DNA from: Bacillus sp. 103mf | GTDB taxonomy: Bacteria; Bacillota; Bacilli; Bacillales; Bacillaceae_G | Direction: 5' to 3' | Length of the DNA: 64,000 nucleotides | NCBI RefSeq assembly: GCF_900116295.1 | Contig: NZ_FPAF01000001.1 | Coordinates: forward strand, 620,001 to 684,000 | Part shown: positions 4,878 to 58,694 of the stretch, piece after piece | Position numbering within the stretch: position 1 is the stretch's first letter | How the letters are laid out: each line of letters opens with the position of its first letter | Notes under the pieces: model-generated | What the model was told of the DNA's origin: nothing | Seen by the model: the letters and a program-made list of their open reading frames with translations, nothing else | Databases searched by the model: none | Translations under genes and position numbers: made by a program

Positions 4878-4962
4878 TTTTTCATCTCCCTACTAAACTA
4901 AACACTATATAAATATAAATTCTCTATAAAACGACATATTTCCTATCCTACTATATATATCC

Positions 4963-5158
4963 ATTGTAATTTTTCGACATCTTTGTCTAGCTCTGCTGAA
5001 TACAACATGACCTGTACTCACTTGTTCCCTTTGTTTAATCACGCATGTGGTAGAAAAAAAGCCCTGACCGCTTCTATGCATAGCCAGATGCTCTCGCCCA
5101 CCTAAATAGAAAGAGGATTTTTATGTCGATTTTTTAAATTTGTATTTATATAACAATG
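4963..5158 (-). repeat. repeat A, copy 1
   Basis: A ~190-bp dispersed repeat. Its outer ends carry similar inverted sequences (TTTTTCGACAT at the left, ATGTCGATTTTTT at the right). The core has a hairpin around CTGACCGCTTC / CCAGATGCTCTCGCC and the phrase 'gcatgtggtagaaaaa'. Related copies lie at 5978, 11013, 13545, 26176, 39905, 49358 and 58520. It is probably one of the bcr repeats of the B. cereus group; I cannot assign the number. Confidence 0.75.
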
Positions 5159-5919: not shown

Positions 5920-5977
5920 AATCCTTCTCCTGTCAGTACATACTATGAAACTATCATTGCATGTACTATTATACTCT

Positions 5978-6092
5978 ATATATCCATTTAAATTTTTTGA
6001 CCTATAAGTCGCTGCTATGCATGCTTAGATCCTCTCTCTCCTAAAAAAGGGATTTTTATGTCCGTTTTTCAACTTGTATTTACATAAGTTGT
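5978..6092 (-). repeat. repeat A, copy 2 (internally deleted)
   Basis: Both ends of repeat A are present (a left end beginning at TATATATCCATTTAAATTTT and a right end containing TTTTTATGTC), but about 80 bp of the interior is missing, joining 'gctgctatgca' directly to the 'tgcttagatcctctctc' side. Confidence 0.65.
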
Positions 6093-8816: not shown

Positions 8817-9110
8817 CTAGCCTATATGACTTTCGTATTTTACGTCTTCAAATGCTCTTTCAATTTCTTCATCTCGGTAATGTACATATGTAAAACGTCC
8901 TAATTCTACTAAACGTGCAATTTCCCGCAATGCTTTTCCTTGTTCATACCCTTCTTTGACGGAGACATGAACATAAAACTTCATGAGCGGGGGCTCATAC
9001 AACGTTTCACCCACTTCCACATATACATTTTCTACCCCTTGTACAACTTGAGCATAACTCGCAAATTGATAAATAGCTTCACGGTCTGAAACAATTTTAA
9101 GTGTATACAT
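8817..9110 (-). CDS. hypothetical protein, 97 aa
   Basis: A small, acidic, soluble protein predicted to be alpha/beta (MYTLKIVSDREAIYQFASYA; later KFYVHVSVKEGYEQGKALRE). No membrane segment, signal peptide or known motif. A clear AAAGGGGG ribosome site precedes the ATG at 9110. Monocistronic. Function not recognised. Confidence 0.65.
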   Translation of the reverse strand: MYTLKIVSDREAIYQFASYAQVVQGVENVYVEVGETLYEPPLMKFYVHVSVKEGYEQGKALREIARLVELGRFTYVHYRDEEIERAFEDVKYESHIG

Positions 9111-9478
9111 GTTTTTTCCCCCTTTTCTTTTTACTATAACAAAAAATGGATATATAAGCGTGTCGAAGTTTGACTATTTTCTGACTTCTTTTCATCATTT
9201 TTTTATTCTGCTATTTACGAATAGTAAAGCCCCATCCTCAAGTTTCAGAGAAAATGAACAAATTCTTTATCTGAAATACAGCTGCTAATACAAATGCCCC
9301 TATTTTTGTATTAAAACTTTTCACAAATTCATGTAAATATAATAAATTATTATTAACTCACGTTATAACAAAATAAAAAACAACTCAAAGTGATGGTTCA
9401 TTTGTCCATACACTTTCTCTCTTTTTACATAAAGTATCGTATAGACATTTTATGTAGCTACTAAAGGAGAGGATTTTC
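9111..9478. other. intergenic region with degenerate bcr1-like fragment and candidate SigK promoter
   Basis: No gene seen. About 9206-9258 resembles the left half of the bcr1-like repeat (ctgctatttacgaatagtaaagcccc, then 'cctcaagtttcagagaaa'). At 9428-9436 CATAAAGTA fits the SigK -10 pattern CATAnnnTA, with an AC-rich block about 16 bases upstream, suggesting late mother-cell expression of the following gene. Both are weak calls. Confidence 0.4.
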
Positions 9479-9991
9479 TTGTCTTATAGTAATCACGATC
9501 GCGATCGAAAAAGACTCCAGTATACTCAGCCCTATCCCCCAGACGAAGTAACAGAAAGACATGCACACAATCATAACGTTGCTCAAATTTCAGATAGTGG
9601 AAACTCCCACGTAAATTTAAATGTAGACTCTGATATAGATTCTGAAACAGCTTCTTCTAATCGGCAGCCTACTGATGTAGAACAGAATCAGAGACAAGGG
9701 CAATCGAATACAGATGCTACAAACCAACTATTAGCAGCCCTGCTTCCATTCTTAACGAATGCATTAAATAATGCTACTCCATCCCAGCAGAGTAACCAAA
9801 ACCAATTCCAAAACCAAAGCCAAAACCAATTCCAAAACCAAGGCCAAAACCAAGGACAAAACCAATTCCAAAACCAAAGCCGAATCCAAATCCAAAGCCA
9901 AAACAAAAACCAAAGCCAAGGCCAAAACAAAAACCAAAACCAAAGCCGAATCCAAAGCCAAAACAAAAACAAAAATAATTTAAATGAATAG
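9479..9991 (+). CDS. Asn/Gln-rich repeat protein, unknown (candidate spore-surface protein)
   Basis: 170 aa from a TTG start behind AAAGGAGAGG. Residues 1-32 are charged and His-rich. Residues 35-50 carry [13 protein letters not shown], a motif shared with the next gene. Residues 80-95 form a short hydrophobic patch ([15 protein letters not shown]). Residues 103-168 are a low-complexity tract of NQFQNQSQ / NQGQ / NKNQ units encoded by near-repeating 6-bp CAAAAC/CAAAGC words, prone to slippage. There is no signal peptide. The protein is prion-like in composition. A candidate SigK-type promoter element lies upstream. A terminator hairpin directly follows, yet the next gene's ribosome site is immediately behind it. 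Function not recognised. Confidence 0.65.
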
Positions 9992-10014
9992 GCTACTAAA
10001 AGTAGCCTATTTTT
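9987..10014 (+). terminator. intrinsic terminator between repeat protein gene and next gene
   Basis: ATAGGCTAC-TAAAA-GTAGCCTAT followed by TTTTT. The AAGGAGG of the downstream gene starts only 3 bases later, so readthrough would be needed for co-transcription. Confidence 0.8.
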
Positions 10015-10030
10015 GTAAGGAGGGTTGACC

Positions 10031-10324
10031 ATGCGGCGAAATAGCTCCGAAATTTCAAACAGCGGAAATTCTAATGTTAATGTGAACGTAAACGTCGATA
10101 CAAGTTCCCTTGCTTATGCAATGATGTGTTATTGGCACTCGAGTGGTATGATTACTGATGAACAGTTCTCACATATGATCACAAATTTTAGCAGTTTACT
10201 AAATAAAGAGGATGCTATACTTCCGCAACTCTTATCAAATAAAGAATATTCTCCCTACCTAGTTCGACAAAAAAATAATATAAATACATTAAAAACATTT
10301 ATCCCCCCTTTTTTCAATCGTTAA
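10031..10324 (+). CDS. small protein sharing the SGNS-VN motif with upstream gene
   Basis: 97 aa. The ATG at 10031 is chosen because AAGGAGG ends 7 bases before it; an in-frame TTG at 10025 overlaps the ribosome site. Residues 5-21 (SSEISNSGNSNVNVNVNV) mirror residues 35-47 of the upstream protein. The remainder is alpha-helical (AYAMMCYWHSSGMITDEQF; SHMITNFSSLLNKEDAI) with no signal peptide or membrane span. The alternating V/N run suggests a beta-strand that could self-associate. No known family recognised. Confidence 0.65.
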   Translation: MRRNSSEISNSGNSNVNVNVNVDTSSLAYAMMCYWHSSGMITDEQFSHMITNFSSLLNKEDAILPQLLSNKEYSPYLVRQKNNINTLKTFIPPFFNR

Positions 10325-10378
10325 GTTCATTTCCTTTTTATCCAGACAGAAAAATTCACTATATTTGAGGTGCCTCCT

Positions 10379-10996
10379 ATGCGTCCTTATGTTAACATAT
10401 GTATTTGCATTACTCCCGGATCTCATATTGATAAAGAACGTATTGCTAAAGATATTGCAATTGCTGAATATATTTGGCATCCTATCGTATTTAAAATTAA
10501 GGATGTCAACGTACTAGATGAGCCATATCGTTTTCATGATGGTGAGATTAGTTATGTATCTTCGCTAAAATCACAACCAAAGTTGACTTCTTTATTTGCT
10601 GAGTGCAGGGAACTTGCCTCGCAATGTGATATTTATATTTGTTATATCGGCAGTAATTATTTTCAAGAACAATCCATTATCGCTTGCGCATATTCTTTAG
10701 CCATTCACACACAAATTAAAGGTTACATTGTATTAACAAATGCCGCTTCAGCTTCGAGGAACATGTACACACTTGCACACGAACTTGGTCACATTTTATT
10801 CACACGACGTGTACAGGACAAGCTTACAAATGCAGATCCCGAGTGTCCAAACGGTTCCGAACACCATCCTTCTCCTACAAACCTTATGCATTATATCGTT
10901 CCTCCCCCTCATAAATCACAAATAGATTCCTTATTAACAAATACTCAAAGAGAATTATCTTTACAAAGCCCTTTATTGCGTAAAGAAAAAAAGTAA
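10379..10996 (+). CDS. putative zinc metallopeptidase (HExxH)
   Basis: 205 aa. Residues about 118-135 read NMYTLAHELGHILF, an HExxH zinc site preceded by a hydrophobic helix; about 30 residues on, EHHPSPTNLMHY supplies a possible third ligand and a Met-turn-like NLM, as in metzincin-type or ImmA/IrrE-like peptidases. The N-terminal half (NICICITPGSHIDKERIAKD) is a separate alpha/beta region with no assigned role. No signal peptide. The ATG at 10379 has TGAGGTG 7 bases upstream and is preferred over an overlapping GTG. It is the third gene of the unrecognised cluster; a role in processing the two upstream proteins is speculation. Confidence 0.75.
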   Translation: MRPYVNICICITPGSHIDKERIAKDIAIAEYIWHPIVFKIKDVNVLDEPYRFHDGEISYVSSLKSQPKLTSLFAECRELASQCDIYICYIGSNYFQEQSIIACAYSLAIHTQIKGYIVLTNAASASRNMYTLAHELGHILFTRRVQDKLTNADPECPNGSEHHPSPTNLMHYIVPPPHKSQIDSLLTNTQRELSLQSPLLRKEKK

Positions 10997-11012: not shown

Positions 11013-11206
11013 TATATATACTAGTTAAAAAACCGACATAAAAACTCCTTTCTTTTTAGGGGGACGAGAGCATCTGGCCGCGCATAGAAACGGTCAGATC
11101 CTGCTCCTACCACATGCAAAGCTGAAAACAAAAGAAGAAAACGAGTACATGTCATGTTGTATCCTGCATAGCAGCGACCTATATGTTGAAAAACCACCAT
11201 GAATTT
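11013..11206 (+). repeat. repeat A, copy 3
   Basis: Nearly full-length: begins at 'actagttaaaaaaccgacataaaaactcc', contains the 'gacgagagcatctggcc...gcatagaaacggtcag' hairpin and ends at 'gcagcgacctatatgttgaaaaac'. It occupies most of the 344-bp gap after the metallopeptidase gene; nothing else is seen there. Confidence 0.8.
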
Positions 11207-11340
11207 ATATGAGTAATTCCTCTCTTCTACCCCAAAAGACTTTATATCTTCTTTTATTCCTTTTACCGTTAAATACGCTCCTGTATCTTCTAGAAACTAC
11301 TTTAATTGTTTTGAAAACCTCTAACTCTTTCCTATCTTAA

Positions 11341-13544: not shown

Positions 13545-13735
13545 ATATAAATCCACTTTGATTTTTCAACACACAAATCGCAACTATACAGAATACAACA
13601 TGCCGGCTACTGGCCTGCTTCTTTTGTTTCAAACCTGGCATGTGGCAGGAAAAGGCCCTGACCGCTACTATACATAGCCAGTCCCTCTCGACCACTCAAA
13701 AAAATGCTTTTCTATCGATTTTTCATAGAGTGACT
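13545..13735 (-). repeat. repeat A, copy 4 (diverged)
   Basis: Contains 'gaatacaacatgccggctactggcc', 'cctggcatgtggcaggaaaaggccctgaccgctactatacatagccag' and 'tctatcgatttttcatag', i.e. the order of repeat A in reverse orientation, with more mismatches than other copies. Confidence 0.6.
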
Positions 13736-14029: not shown

Positions 14030-14175
14030 CTCTTATCTATCAGAAAGTCTCTCTTTCTGTTGGAATTAGCACCGTGCCTTACTAGGCGCCAATCATGCGC
14101 CCCATTTCACAATGGTATTACGGTCGGTTGCTGGGTTTCATCGGGCCAAATCCCTCCACCTGCTCTTGATAAGAG
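14030..14175 (-). promoter_or_regulatory. SAM-I (S-box) riboswitch upstream of yvrJ-like gene
   Basis: On the minus strand: P1 CTCTTATCAAGAG, then GGTGGAGGGA...GGCCC, GATGAAACCCAGCAACC, a P3 arm, AAGGCACGGTGCTAATTCC and the closing GATAAGAG. All invariant blocks of the SAM-I aptamer are present. A promoter (TTGACA at 14235-14240, TATAGT at 14211-14216, 18-bp spacer) precedes it. SAM binding should favour the downstream terminator. The only downstream gene is the 61-aa YvrJ-like protein; in B. subtilis the equivalent S-box precedes mtnK-mtnA. Confidence 0.93.
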
Positions 14176-26175: not shown

Positions 26176-26356
26176 AATTAGATATATACAAGTAAAAAAT
26201 CGACATAAAAATCCTCTTTCTTTTTAGACGGACGAGAGCATCTGGCCATGCATAGAAGCGGTCAGGACCTTTTTTTGCCACATGCAGGGTTTAAAACAAA
26301 AGGAGAAAGCGAGTAGCGGTCATGTTGTATTCTGCAGAGCAGTGACTTATAAAGAA
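26176..26356 (+). repeat. repeat A, copy 5
   Basis: Full-length: 'aagtaaaaaatcgacataaaaatcctctttctttttag', 'gacgagagcatctggccatgcatagaagcggtcagg', 'cacatgcagggtttaaaacaaaaggagaaagcgag', 'tcatgttgtattctgcagagcagtgacttat'. Confidence 0.85.
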
Positions 26357-39904: not shown

Positions 39905-40090
39905 TACCTAATATAAATAAAAAAGCGATATAAAAAACCTCTTTCTTTTAGGTAAGCGAGAGCGTCTGACCATGCATAGAATCGGTCAGATCCTTTTCCT
40001 GCCACATGCGAGGTTTAAAACAAAGGGAGGAAGCGAGTCCAGATCACACTTCTGCATAGTAGCAACTTATATGTTGAAAAAGTTTAAATG
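39905..40090 (+). repeat. repeat A, copy 6
   Basis: 'aaaaaagcgatataaaaaacctctttcttttagg', 'gcgagagcgtctgaccatgcatagaatcggtcag', 'ctgccacatgcgaggtttaaaacaaagggaggaagcgag', 'gtagcaacttatatgttgaaaaag'. Confidence 0.8.
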
Positions 40091-49651: not shown

Positions 49652-49861
49652 ATAAAACCATTCTTTTTCGGTGGGCGAGAGCATCTGGCCATGTATAGAA
49701 GCGGTCAGTGCCCTTTCCTGCCACATACAAGGTAAAACAAAGGGAGAAAGCAAGTGCAGGTTCCTTTTCTTCTGCATAGCCGCAATCTATATGTCGAAAA
49801 ATGAAAATGGATTCATATAGAAACATCTCTCACTATCGAAATCATAGCAAAATTACTAAAA

Positions 49862-58519: not shown

Positions 58520-58694
58520 CTATTTTTATGCAATGCAGAATACAGCATGACTGCTACTTGTTTTCTCCTTTTGTTTTACCTTACATGTGGCAGGAAAAGG
58601 CCCTAACCGCTTCTATGCATGGCCAGATGCTCTCGCCCACCTAAAAAGAAAGGGGGTTTTTATGTCATTTTTTCAATTTGCACATATATTTACA
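58520..58694 (-). repeat. repeat A, copy 8 (left end truncated)
   Basis: 'aatgcagaatacagcatgactgctacttg', 'ttacatgtggcaggaaaaggccctaaccgcttctatgcatggccagatgctctcgcccaccta' and 'gggggtttttatgtcattttttcaatttgcacat'. The left terminus is missing next to the secreted-protein gene. Confidence 0.8.

Follow-up and report, generated by a model that had tools for sequence, protein, structure and literature searches.

SspG of Bacillus subtilis carries the name of a small acid-soluble spore protein (SASP), and a list in PMC7352945 places it under 'protection of spore DNA'. According to passages in other papers, SspG goes up after 210 min, the other SASPs at 60-105 min (PMC8431406), its transcription needs GerE (as quoted in PMC5168857), and ultraviolet (UV) resistance is stated to be unaffected by SspG (PMC1976550). 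PMC2749860 lists sspG and yurS under gerE, spoIVCB and spoIIIC, together with cot genes; in a list of PMC10458515, yurS stands beside cotG and is 175-fold up at 15 h over 12 h. Both genes were deleted as non-essential in a reduced-genome strain, as a passage of PMC4893254 mentions. In the literature that was searched we found incidental mentions only and no paper on sspG/yurS as a gene-pair family; four motif strings gave no literature match either. Here we describe a pair of this type, and the zinc protease gene behind it, in Bacillus sp. 103mf. The window is a stretch of 64,000 nucleotides (contig NZ_FPAF01000001.1, positions 620,001 to 684,000, forward strand), and all coordinates refer to it.

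The first two genes are a divergent SspG/YurS-type pair, partly known and mostly overlooked. The third is a lineage-specific metzincin-like neighbour, the connection of which to the pair is uncertain. We consider it probable that genes 1 and 2 encode late mother-cell proteins of the spore layers, which co-assemble via a shared motif and have a lineage-specific protease nearby. The genes and the main features of the pair are:

9479-9991, plus strand: gene 1, open reading frame (ORF) for an SspG-type low-complexity protein of 170 amino acids, with a TTG start behind AAGGAGAGG
9587-9625, plus strand: SGNS motif of gene 1 (ISxSGNSxVNxNV), from the translation
9796-9974, plus strand: N/Q repeat array of gene 1, period of 12 base pairs (bp), 14.9 copies according to TRF
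10031-10324, plus strand: gene 2, ORF with ATG start for a YurS-type protein of 97 amino acids, SGNS motif followed by a predicted helical hairpin
10052-10090, plus strand: SGNS motif of gene 2 (ISNSGNSNVNVNV), from translation and alignment
10100-10198, plus strand: two-helix hairpin of gene 2, residues 24-56, as predicted by AlphaFold2
10379-10996, plus strand: gene 3, ORF with ATG start for a predicted single-domain, metzincin-like zinc protease of 205 amino acids

A preliminary description, made from the letters of the window, had placed three genes here, and all three are confirmed as ORFs on the plus strand. Its common ISxSGNSxVNxNV string occurs exactly in both translations, and the N/Q repeats with which it let gene 1 end are present, their 6-bp words being legible directly in the sequence. 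That the set as a whole is unrecognised, as it had further claimed, does not hold, since proteins of the gene 1 and gene 2 types make up a widespread pair, of which SspG is a named member.

How widespread the pair is became evident from a gene 2 profile built from four proteins. Applied to 397 genomes of the Ectobacillus order at E ≤ 0.01, it matched 58, or 55 of the 397 after removal of three weak matches that had E-values over 6e-3 and did not cover the motif. A wider profile yielded 10 matches among 348 genomes drawn from the class and one among 348 drawn from the phylum (genome G001 itself) at E ≤ 1e-5, and the gene 2-type family therefore seems to be limited to Bacilli. For the analysis of context, 59 loci were compiled: 55 places outside genomes G001, G002 and G004 (L049-L103), plus the window, L001, L017 and L018. 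Each of L049-L103 holds a gene 2-type ORF by construction, having been fetched for one. An ORF with an SGNx motif lies directly upstream of gene 2 at 55 of the 59 loci with a strict form of the motif, as against 16 of 310 control ORFs, and at 58 of 59 with a loose form, as against 22 of 310; a search with a hidden Markov model finds the upstream partner at 50. The control ORFs, 310 for the partner and 257 for the promoter comparisons below, come from the same loci, and some of them adjoin real pairs. The window, too, has a low-complexity ORF with an SGNx motif of its own directly in front of gene 2. Apart from the pair, no neighbour recurs widely within about 4 kb on each side; the next clusters reach 5/59 and 4/59, and one of those present at four loci is gene 3.

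The two proteins share the motif and little else. In an alignment of gene 2 proteins (n = 13), S11, G12, N13, V16, D23 and A28 are invariant, and according to alignments and searches the window protein conforms to the core SGN[SA]xV...D[TN]..[LI]A[YF]. AlphaFold2 predicts helices at residues 24-37 and 43-56, where the block pLDDT is 65-82. The stretch common to both proteins, SGNSxVxVxV, would be a short, beta-prone contact that lets them co-assemble; the helical hairpin contributed by gene 2 may oligomerise, and gene 1 would add a hydrophilic region of low complexity that evolves fast. This region indeed varies in kind between species: it is of the N/Q type in the window, consists of DQ/EQ-type tails in many relatives, and is built from GGAGD in Ectobacillus. 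Such differences in kind would fit a shell or brush that is hydrophilic and only weakly constrained in sequence. The SGNS genes of L001 have arrays different from that of the window, with periods of 45, 24 and 18 bp among others. A TTG follows GGAGAGG in L001 and L017 as well, and the stretch LLAALLPFL of the gene 1 protein resembles LLASLIPML in Ectobacillus.

The link to B. subtilis was made with the relative from L073. By tblastn against plasmid records it detects a gene 2-type frame directly after the annotated sspG of B. subtilis SRCM103517 (L107). From the gene order of B. subtilis, we take this frame to be yurS. SspG itself (WP_015384584.1) has 48 amino acids, the motif QNSGNAKVVVNVN and a DQAQAQSQ tail; the DNA upstream of its gene contains a block, TTCGTCCAATC...CGAATATCCTG, similar to the promoter pattern of the pair. 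It thus resembles gene 1 in being the first gene of a pair, in its SGNA/SGNS motif, in its Q-rich hydrophilic tail and in its promoter block, the late, GerE-linked expression being known from the papers for SspG. The differences concern size and composition: 48 residues and a short tail in SspG versus 170 residues and about 15 copies of a 12-bp N/Q repeat in gene 1, which also has the LLAALLPFL stretch that SspG lacks. The YurS-type frame shares with gene 2 the core SGNSxVxIxIDTxxIAFAxLC and a probable helical hairpin, whereas the C-terminal tails differ. Window gene 2 and the L087 member are 35% identical over 57 residues (E 3e-11, in a set of four sequences), and the gene 2 profile matches G370 and G230, two genomes that carry SspG-like genes, with an E-value of 4e-8 per genome.

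Known families do not cover the pair. The Pfam and NCBIfam cut-offs were missed by all seven pair members tried and by SspG as well. SHOCT was considered and dropped: one relative gave an E-value of 0.0019 and 18.3 bits, the cut-off being 27, and window gene 2 gave no match. The crust proteins of the Coat_X family (PF07552; CotX/CotV) look similar by eye, with a short I-x-x-S-x-x-x-V-x-V stretch followed by DT and a helix, but hhalign does not support a kinship (probability 0.1, E 0.58).

Two elements of the DNA accompany the pair, a promoter pattern in front of gene 1 and a hairpin between the genes:

9401-9407, plus strand: TTTGTCC box of the pair's promoter pattern, present at 20 of 59 pairs and at 1 of 257 control ORFs
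9410-9436, plus strand: SigK-like promoter, read directly, with AC at 9410-9411, 16 bases, then CATAAAGTA at 9428-9436
9987-10011, plus strand: hairpin between genes 1 and 2, 11-pair stem with a loop of 3, a possible attenuator or processing element

The SigK-like -10 element that had been noted before gene 1 is thus found at 9428-9436, with AC 16 bases upstream. The reverse complement of the box, GGACAAA, fits what we take to be a SpoIIID-like site; on the gene strand GGACAAA itself occurs at 6/59 loci and in 8/257 controls. TTTGTCC remains at 11 of 31 loci after dereplication. The combined pattern, TTGTC[CT], 14-22 bases, [CA]ATANNN[TA][AT], is present at 23 of the 59 loci versus one of the 257 controls, with a significance that is inflated, since pattern and counts come from one set of sequences. 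After clustering of gene 2 at 65% identity it is still present at 13 of 31, and the window (box plus [CA]ATANNNTA), L017 and L018 all have it. Its halves are less selective: TTGTC[CT] alone occurs at 35/59 versus 13/257, [CA]ATANNNTA alone at 41/59 versus 41/257. Seven or more of the eight positions of TTTGTCCA are matched at 31/59 loci and in 20/257 controls, and the 31 loci give the consensus TTTGTCCAnnCA...TGAATAnAnTA. For comparison, SigK promoters are described in a passage of PMC517825 as having a five-base -35 and a ten-base -10 element with a gap of 14-16 bases. On this reading, a single promoter composed of the box and the SigK-like -10 would drive genes 1 and 2 late in the mother cell, also in the species of the window.

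The timing bears on another view of the pair, namely that genes 1 and 2 encode a minor pair of SASP-like proteins packed in the core of the spore, with no relation to gene 3. The name of SspG and its listing with DNA protection speak for it, and the latter counts against a place in the spore layers. The promoter pattern, however, looks mother-cell-like, and the published passages on late appearance, GerE dependence and unimpaired UV resistance are equally at odds with a core SASP. We consider this view improbable.

The hairpin had been called a terminator. A stem is there and is stable relative to shuffled sequence (z -4.1), but the terminator scan lists 9987-10011 on the minus strand only, whereas the genes lie on the plus strand. 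Stable folding of the intergenic stretch recurs: z is below -2 at 36 of 47 loci (mean z -3.15). Among 120 control stretches this holds for 13 (mean z -0.35); the controls are 72 bases long and were taken from in front of 120 of the 257 control ORFs, so that they differ from the test set in length and type. The shuffles preserved mononucleotide composition, and 12 of the 59 loci were left out, 11 having a gap outside 40-180 bases and one having no partner. Dereplication leaves 17 of 24. The hairpin probably reduces how strongly gene 2 is expressed compared with gene 1, possibly by attenuation.

The gene products, in turn, probably enter the outer spore layers. A spore-surface or assembly system had been proposed in the preliminary description; of this idea, a late mother-cell sporulation context and a possible role at the surface or in assembly are supported, through SspG and the probable YurS of B. 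subtilis and through the promoter pattern that recurs in part of the family. A number of observations weigh against a co-assembling pair of spore-layer proteins. The combined promoter pattern is absent from 36 of the 59 loci, among them L001 and the SspG-like L087 and L089; the strict SigK form, AC-N15-17-CATANNNTA, is rare (11/59 versus 6/257), and GAATANNNTA is only partially spread (20/59 loci versus 7/257 controls). L087 and L089, the loci nearest to B. subtilis sspG, lack the intergenic hairpin of the window because their genes overlap (gap -1). The link of gene 1 to SspG consists of motif, place and composition, and the largest blastp cluster of first genes comprises 33 of the 59 loci only. 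The profiles of the gene 1 and gene 2 types do match over the motif in hhalign (probability 88%, E 3e-7), a result that is partly circular, the gene 1 rows having been gathered with the gene 2 profile. The AlphaFold2 model of gene 2 is poor as a whole (pLDDT 55) and shows no strand at the motif, and the L107 record has no coding sequence annotated at the frame after sspG. Finally, the absence of gene 2 from all of 15 genomes without SpoIVA (0 of the 55 gene 2-positive genomes) says little, as about 2 would be expected there by chance.

Gene 3 is of a different kind. Its presumed zinc-site and Met-turn residues are:

10778-10792, plus strand: HELGH zinc motif, residues 134-138, with H134, E135, G137 and H138 invariant in 9 relatives
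10862-10888, plus strand: proposed third zinc ligand H162 and Met-turn N168-x-M170, invariant in 9

The HExxH of the third protein had been seen before. In the alignment of 9 relatives all of H134, E135, G137, H138, H162, N168 and M170 are kept. An AlphaFold2 model from two sequences (pLDDT 69, pTM 0.72) has ADAMTS-1, fragilysin and ADAM33 as its top Foldseek matches, with E-values from 3e-5 (ADAMTS-1) to 8e-5 and TM-scores (query) of 0.45-0.52. By this model, gene 3 is a single-domain, metzincin-like protease. The separate N-terminal domain that the preliminary description had assumed is not borne out, for alignment and fold match indicate one domain. With the metzincins (ADAMTS/ADAM, fragilysin, archaemetzincin) gene 3 shares fold, HExxH, a later invariant His and an N-x-M turn. 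The metzincin zinc motif is HExxHxxGxxH/D; gene 3 deviates from it (HELGHILFTRR in the window), and its putative third ligand lies about 24 residues behind the second His instead of within HExxHxxGxxH. Residues 141-205 are weakly modelled (block pLDDT 36-51), which counts against the assignment, and with a block pLDDT of 42 around H162 and N168-x-M170 their position in the fold is unreliable. Window gene 3 stays below all Pfam cut-offs; Peptidase_M78 (IrrE-like) was rejected in favour of a metzincin, with 21.1 bits against a gathering score of 22, over residues 113-146 only and thus local to HExxH. No secretion signal was seen by eye, and we take the enzyme to be intracellular. It may trim the product of gene 1 or 2 or another spore-layer protein. 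Among the papers listed in a literature search, no title or opening of an abstract linked a metzincin to the spore coat or sporulation. Phages yielded no relatives of gene 3, and viral contigs one match of 24 residues around HExxH.

Does the protease belong to the pair? A contig scan with gene 3 yielded one relative, in Ectobacillus panaciterrae (L001), with 51% identity. NCBI places this species in the order Caryophanales, for which Bacillales is the older name. The order there is NUDIX, a 298-residue SGNS protein (45-bp and 24-bp repeats), a 76-residue SGNS protein, a gene 2-type protein (18-bp repeats) and gene 3, so that L001 preserves the sequence NUDIX - SGNS genes - gene 3; L017 and L018 preserve gene 2 - gene 3 - mtn-type genes. 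At E ≤ 1e-5, five of the 19 genomes of the Ectobacillus family have a gene 3 match, which is strong in four and distant in G018; SGNS genes accompany gene 3 in three of the five (G001, G002, G004). The co-occurrence of all three genes, as far as the preliminary description had envisaged it, thus holds for the pair, which is near-constant, and not for gene 3, which adjoins it only in the window and three of those 19 genomes.

Whether gene 3 is independent, a mere neighbour in one lineage of a functional unit of two genes, is nearly an even question; its independence would be compatible with genes 1 and 2 as spore-layer proteins. The family distribution argues for a connection: gene 2-type and gene 3-type matches fall in the same five of the 19 genomes, the other 14 have neither, and in four genomes, the window included, gene 3 is closely spaced to the pair. 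Other loci disagree. In G003, gene 3 lies between NUDIX and an mtnU-type gene where the pair is absent, the gene 2-type gene being on another contig. Among 12 genomes of the order with a gene 3-type match, five also have a gene 2-type match (G001, G002, G004, G018, G314), in G018 and G314 on different contigs, and seven, with distant homologues, have none. A candidate promoter of its own, CATANANTG, was recognised by eye before gene 3 in L001, L017, L018 and L019, though not in the window. With such a candidate at four of five gene 3 loci, G003 with its missing pair included, gene 3 is perhaps a mere neighbour, and these sites speak against its membership in the spore-layer set.

One short N/G/V-rich motif in two small proteins with a zinc protease next door could also be read as signalling: SGNS would then be an amyloid signalling motif and the set, instead of being structural, a stress or defence signalling module whose effector is the protease. 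This we judge to be very improbable. The motif is absent from gene 3, the protease is present at 4 of 59 loci, no further gene is widely recurrent beside the pair (no PADLOC or PHROGs scan was made, and neighbours were not annotated individually), and passages on B. subtilis describe the members of the pair as late sporulation genes.

If genes 1 and 2 are indeed spore-layer proteins, a more specific picture can be drawn, which we regard as rather unlikely in its full form. It would be a two-protein spore-surface system across spore-forming bacilli, with SGNSxVxVxV as a homotypic, amyloid-like joint and a ratio set by the hairpin in many species, and a dedicated metzincin in one lineage. The joint would link a small helical partner to a shell protein of low complexity, the repeats of which are exchanged freely from one species to the next, and the shell would be matured by the metzincin, which would act inside the cell and have its third zinc ligand at an unusual distance. 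A metzincin active in the mother cell would be unexpected. The pair can be traced by motif and order, often also by promoter block and hairpin, in 55 of the 397 genomes of the order, and it stays traceable while its low-complexity part changes beyond recognition. If the spore-layer role is true, it offers a testable two-gene system for assembly and diversification of the outer spore layer, with B. subtilis 168 as entry.

Some further observations concern the pair and its surroundings. Two or three SspG-type genes, sometimes flanking the YurS-type gene, occur in L061, L062, L063, L065, L066, L068, L071, L073, L075 and L098. The Priestia filamentosa plasmid pBEH2 (L105, 2130-2767) carries two adjacent hypothetical proteins, the second of YurS type. 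Relatives of window gene 2 were found neither in viral contigs nor in plasmids, and none of the L073 gene 2-type protein in phages. Upstream of the locus, at 8817-9110, lies a DUF3928 protein (E 9e-46), for which a search without positive control, at E ≤ 1e-5, left all 19 genomes of the Ectobacillus family without a match. An S-adenosylmethionine (SAM) riboswitch at 14030-14175 on the minus strand (80.7 bits) is near methionine-salvage-like genes, presumably mtn, and these genes are conserved in relatives.

Just downstream of gene 3, at 11021-11215, lies the first of seven window copies of an interspersed repeat of about 150-195 bp, which is reminiscent of the bcr-type repeats of the B. cereus group. 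The other copies (26193-26351, 58529-58676, 4949-5137, 39918-40081, 49652-49818 and 13545-13702) are 72-82% identical to the first. Short fragments lie near 6000, a 92-base match is found in L001 at 5943-6031, and the first copy folds at -41 kcal/mol.

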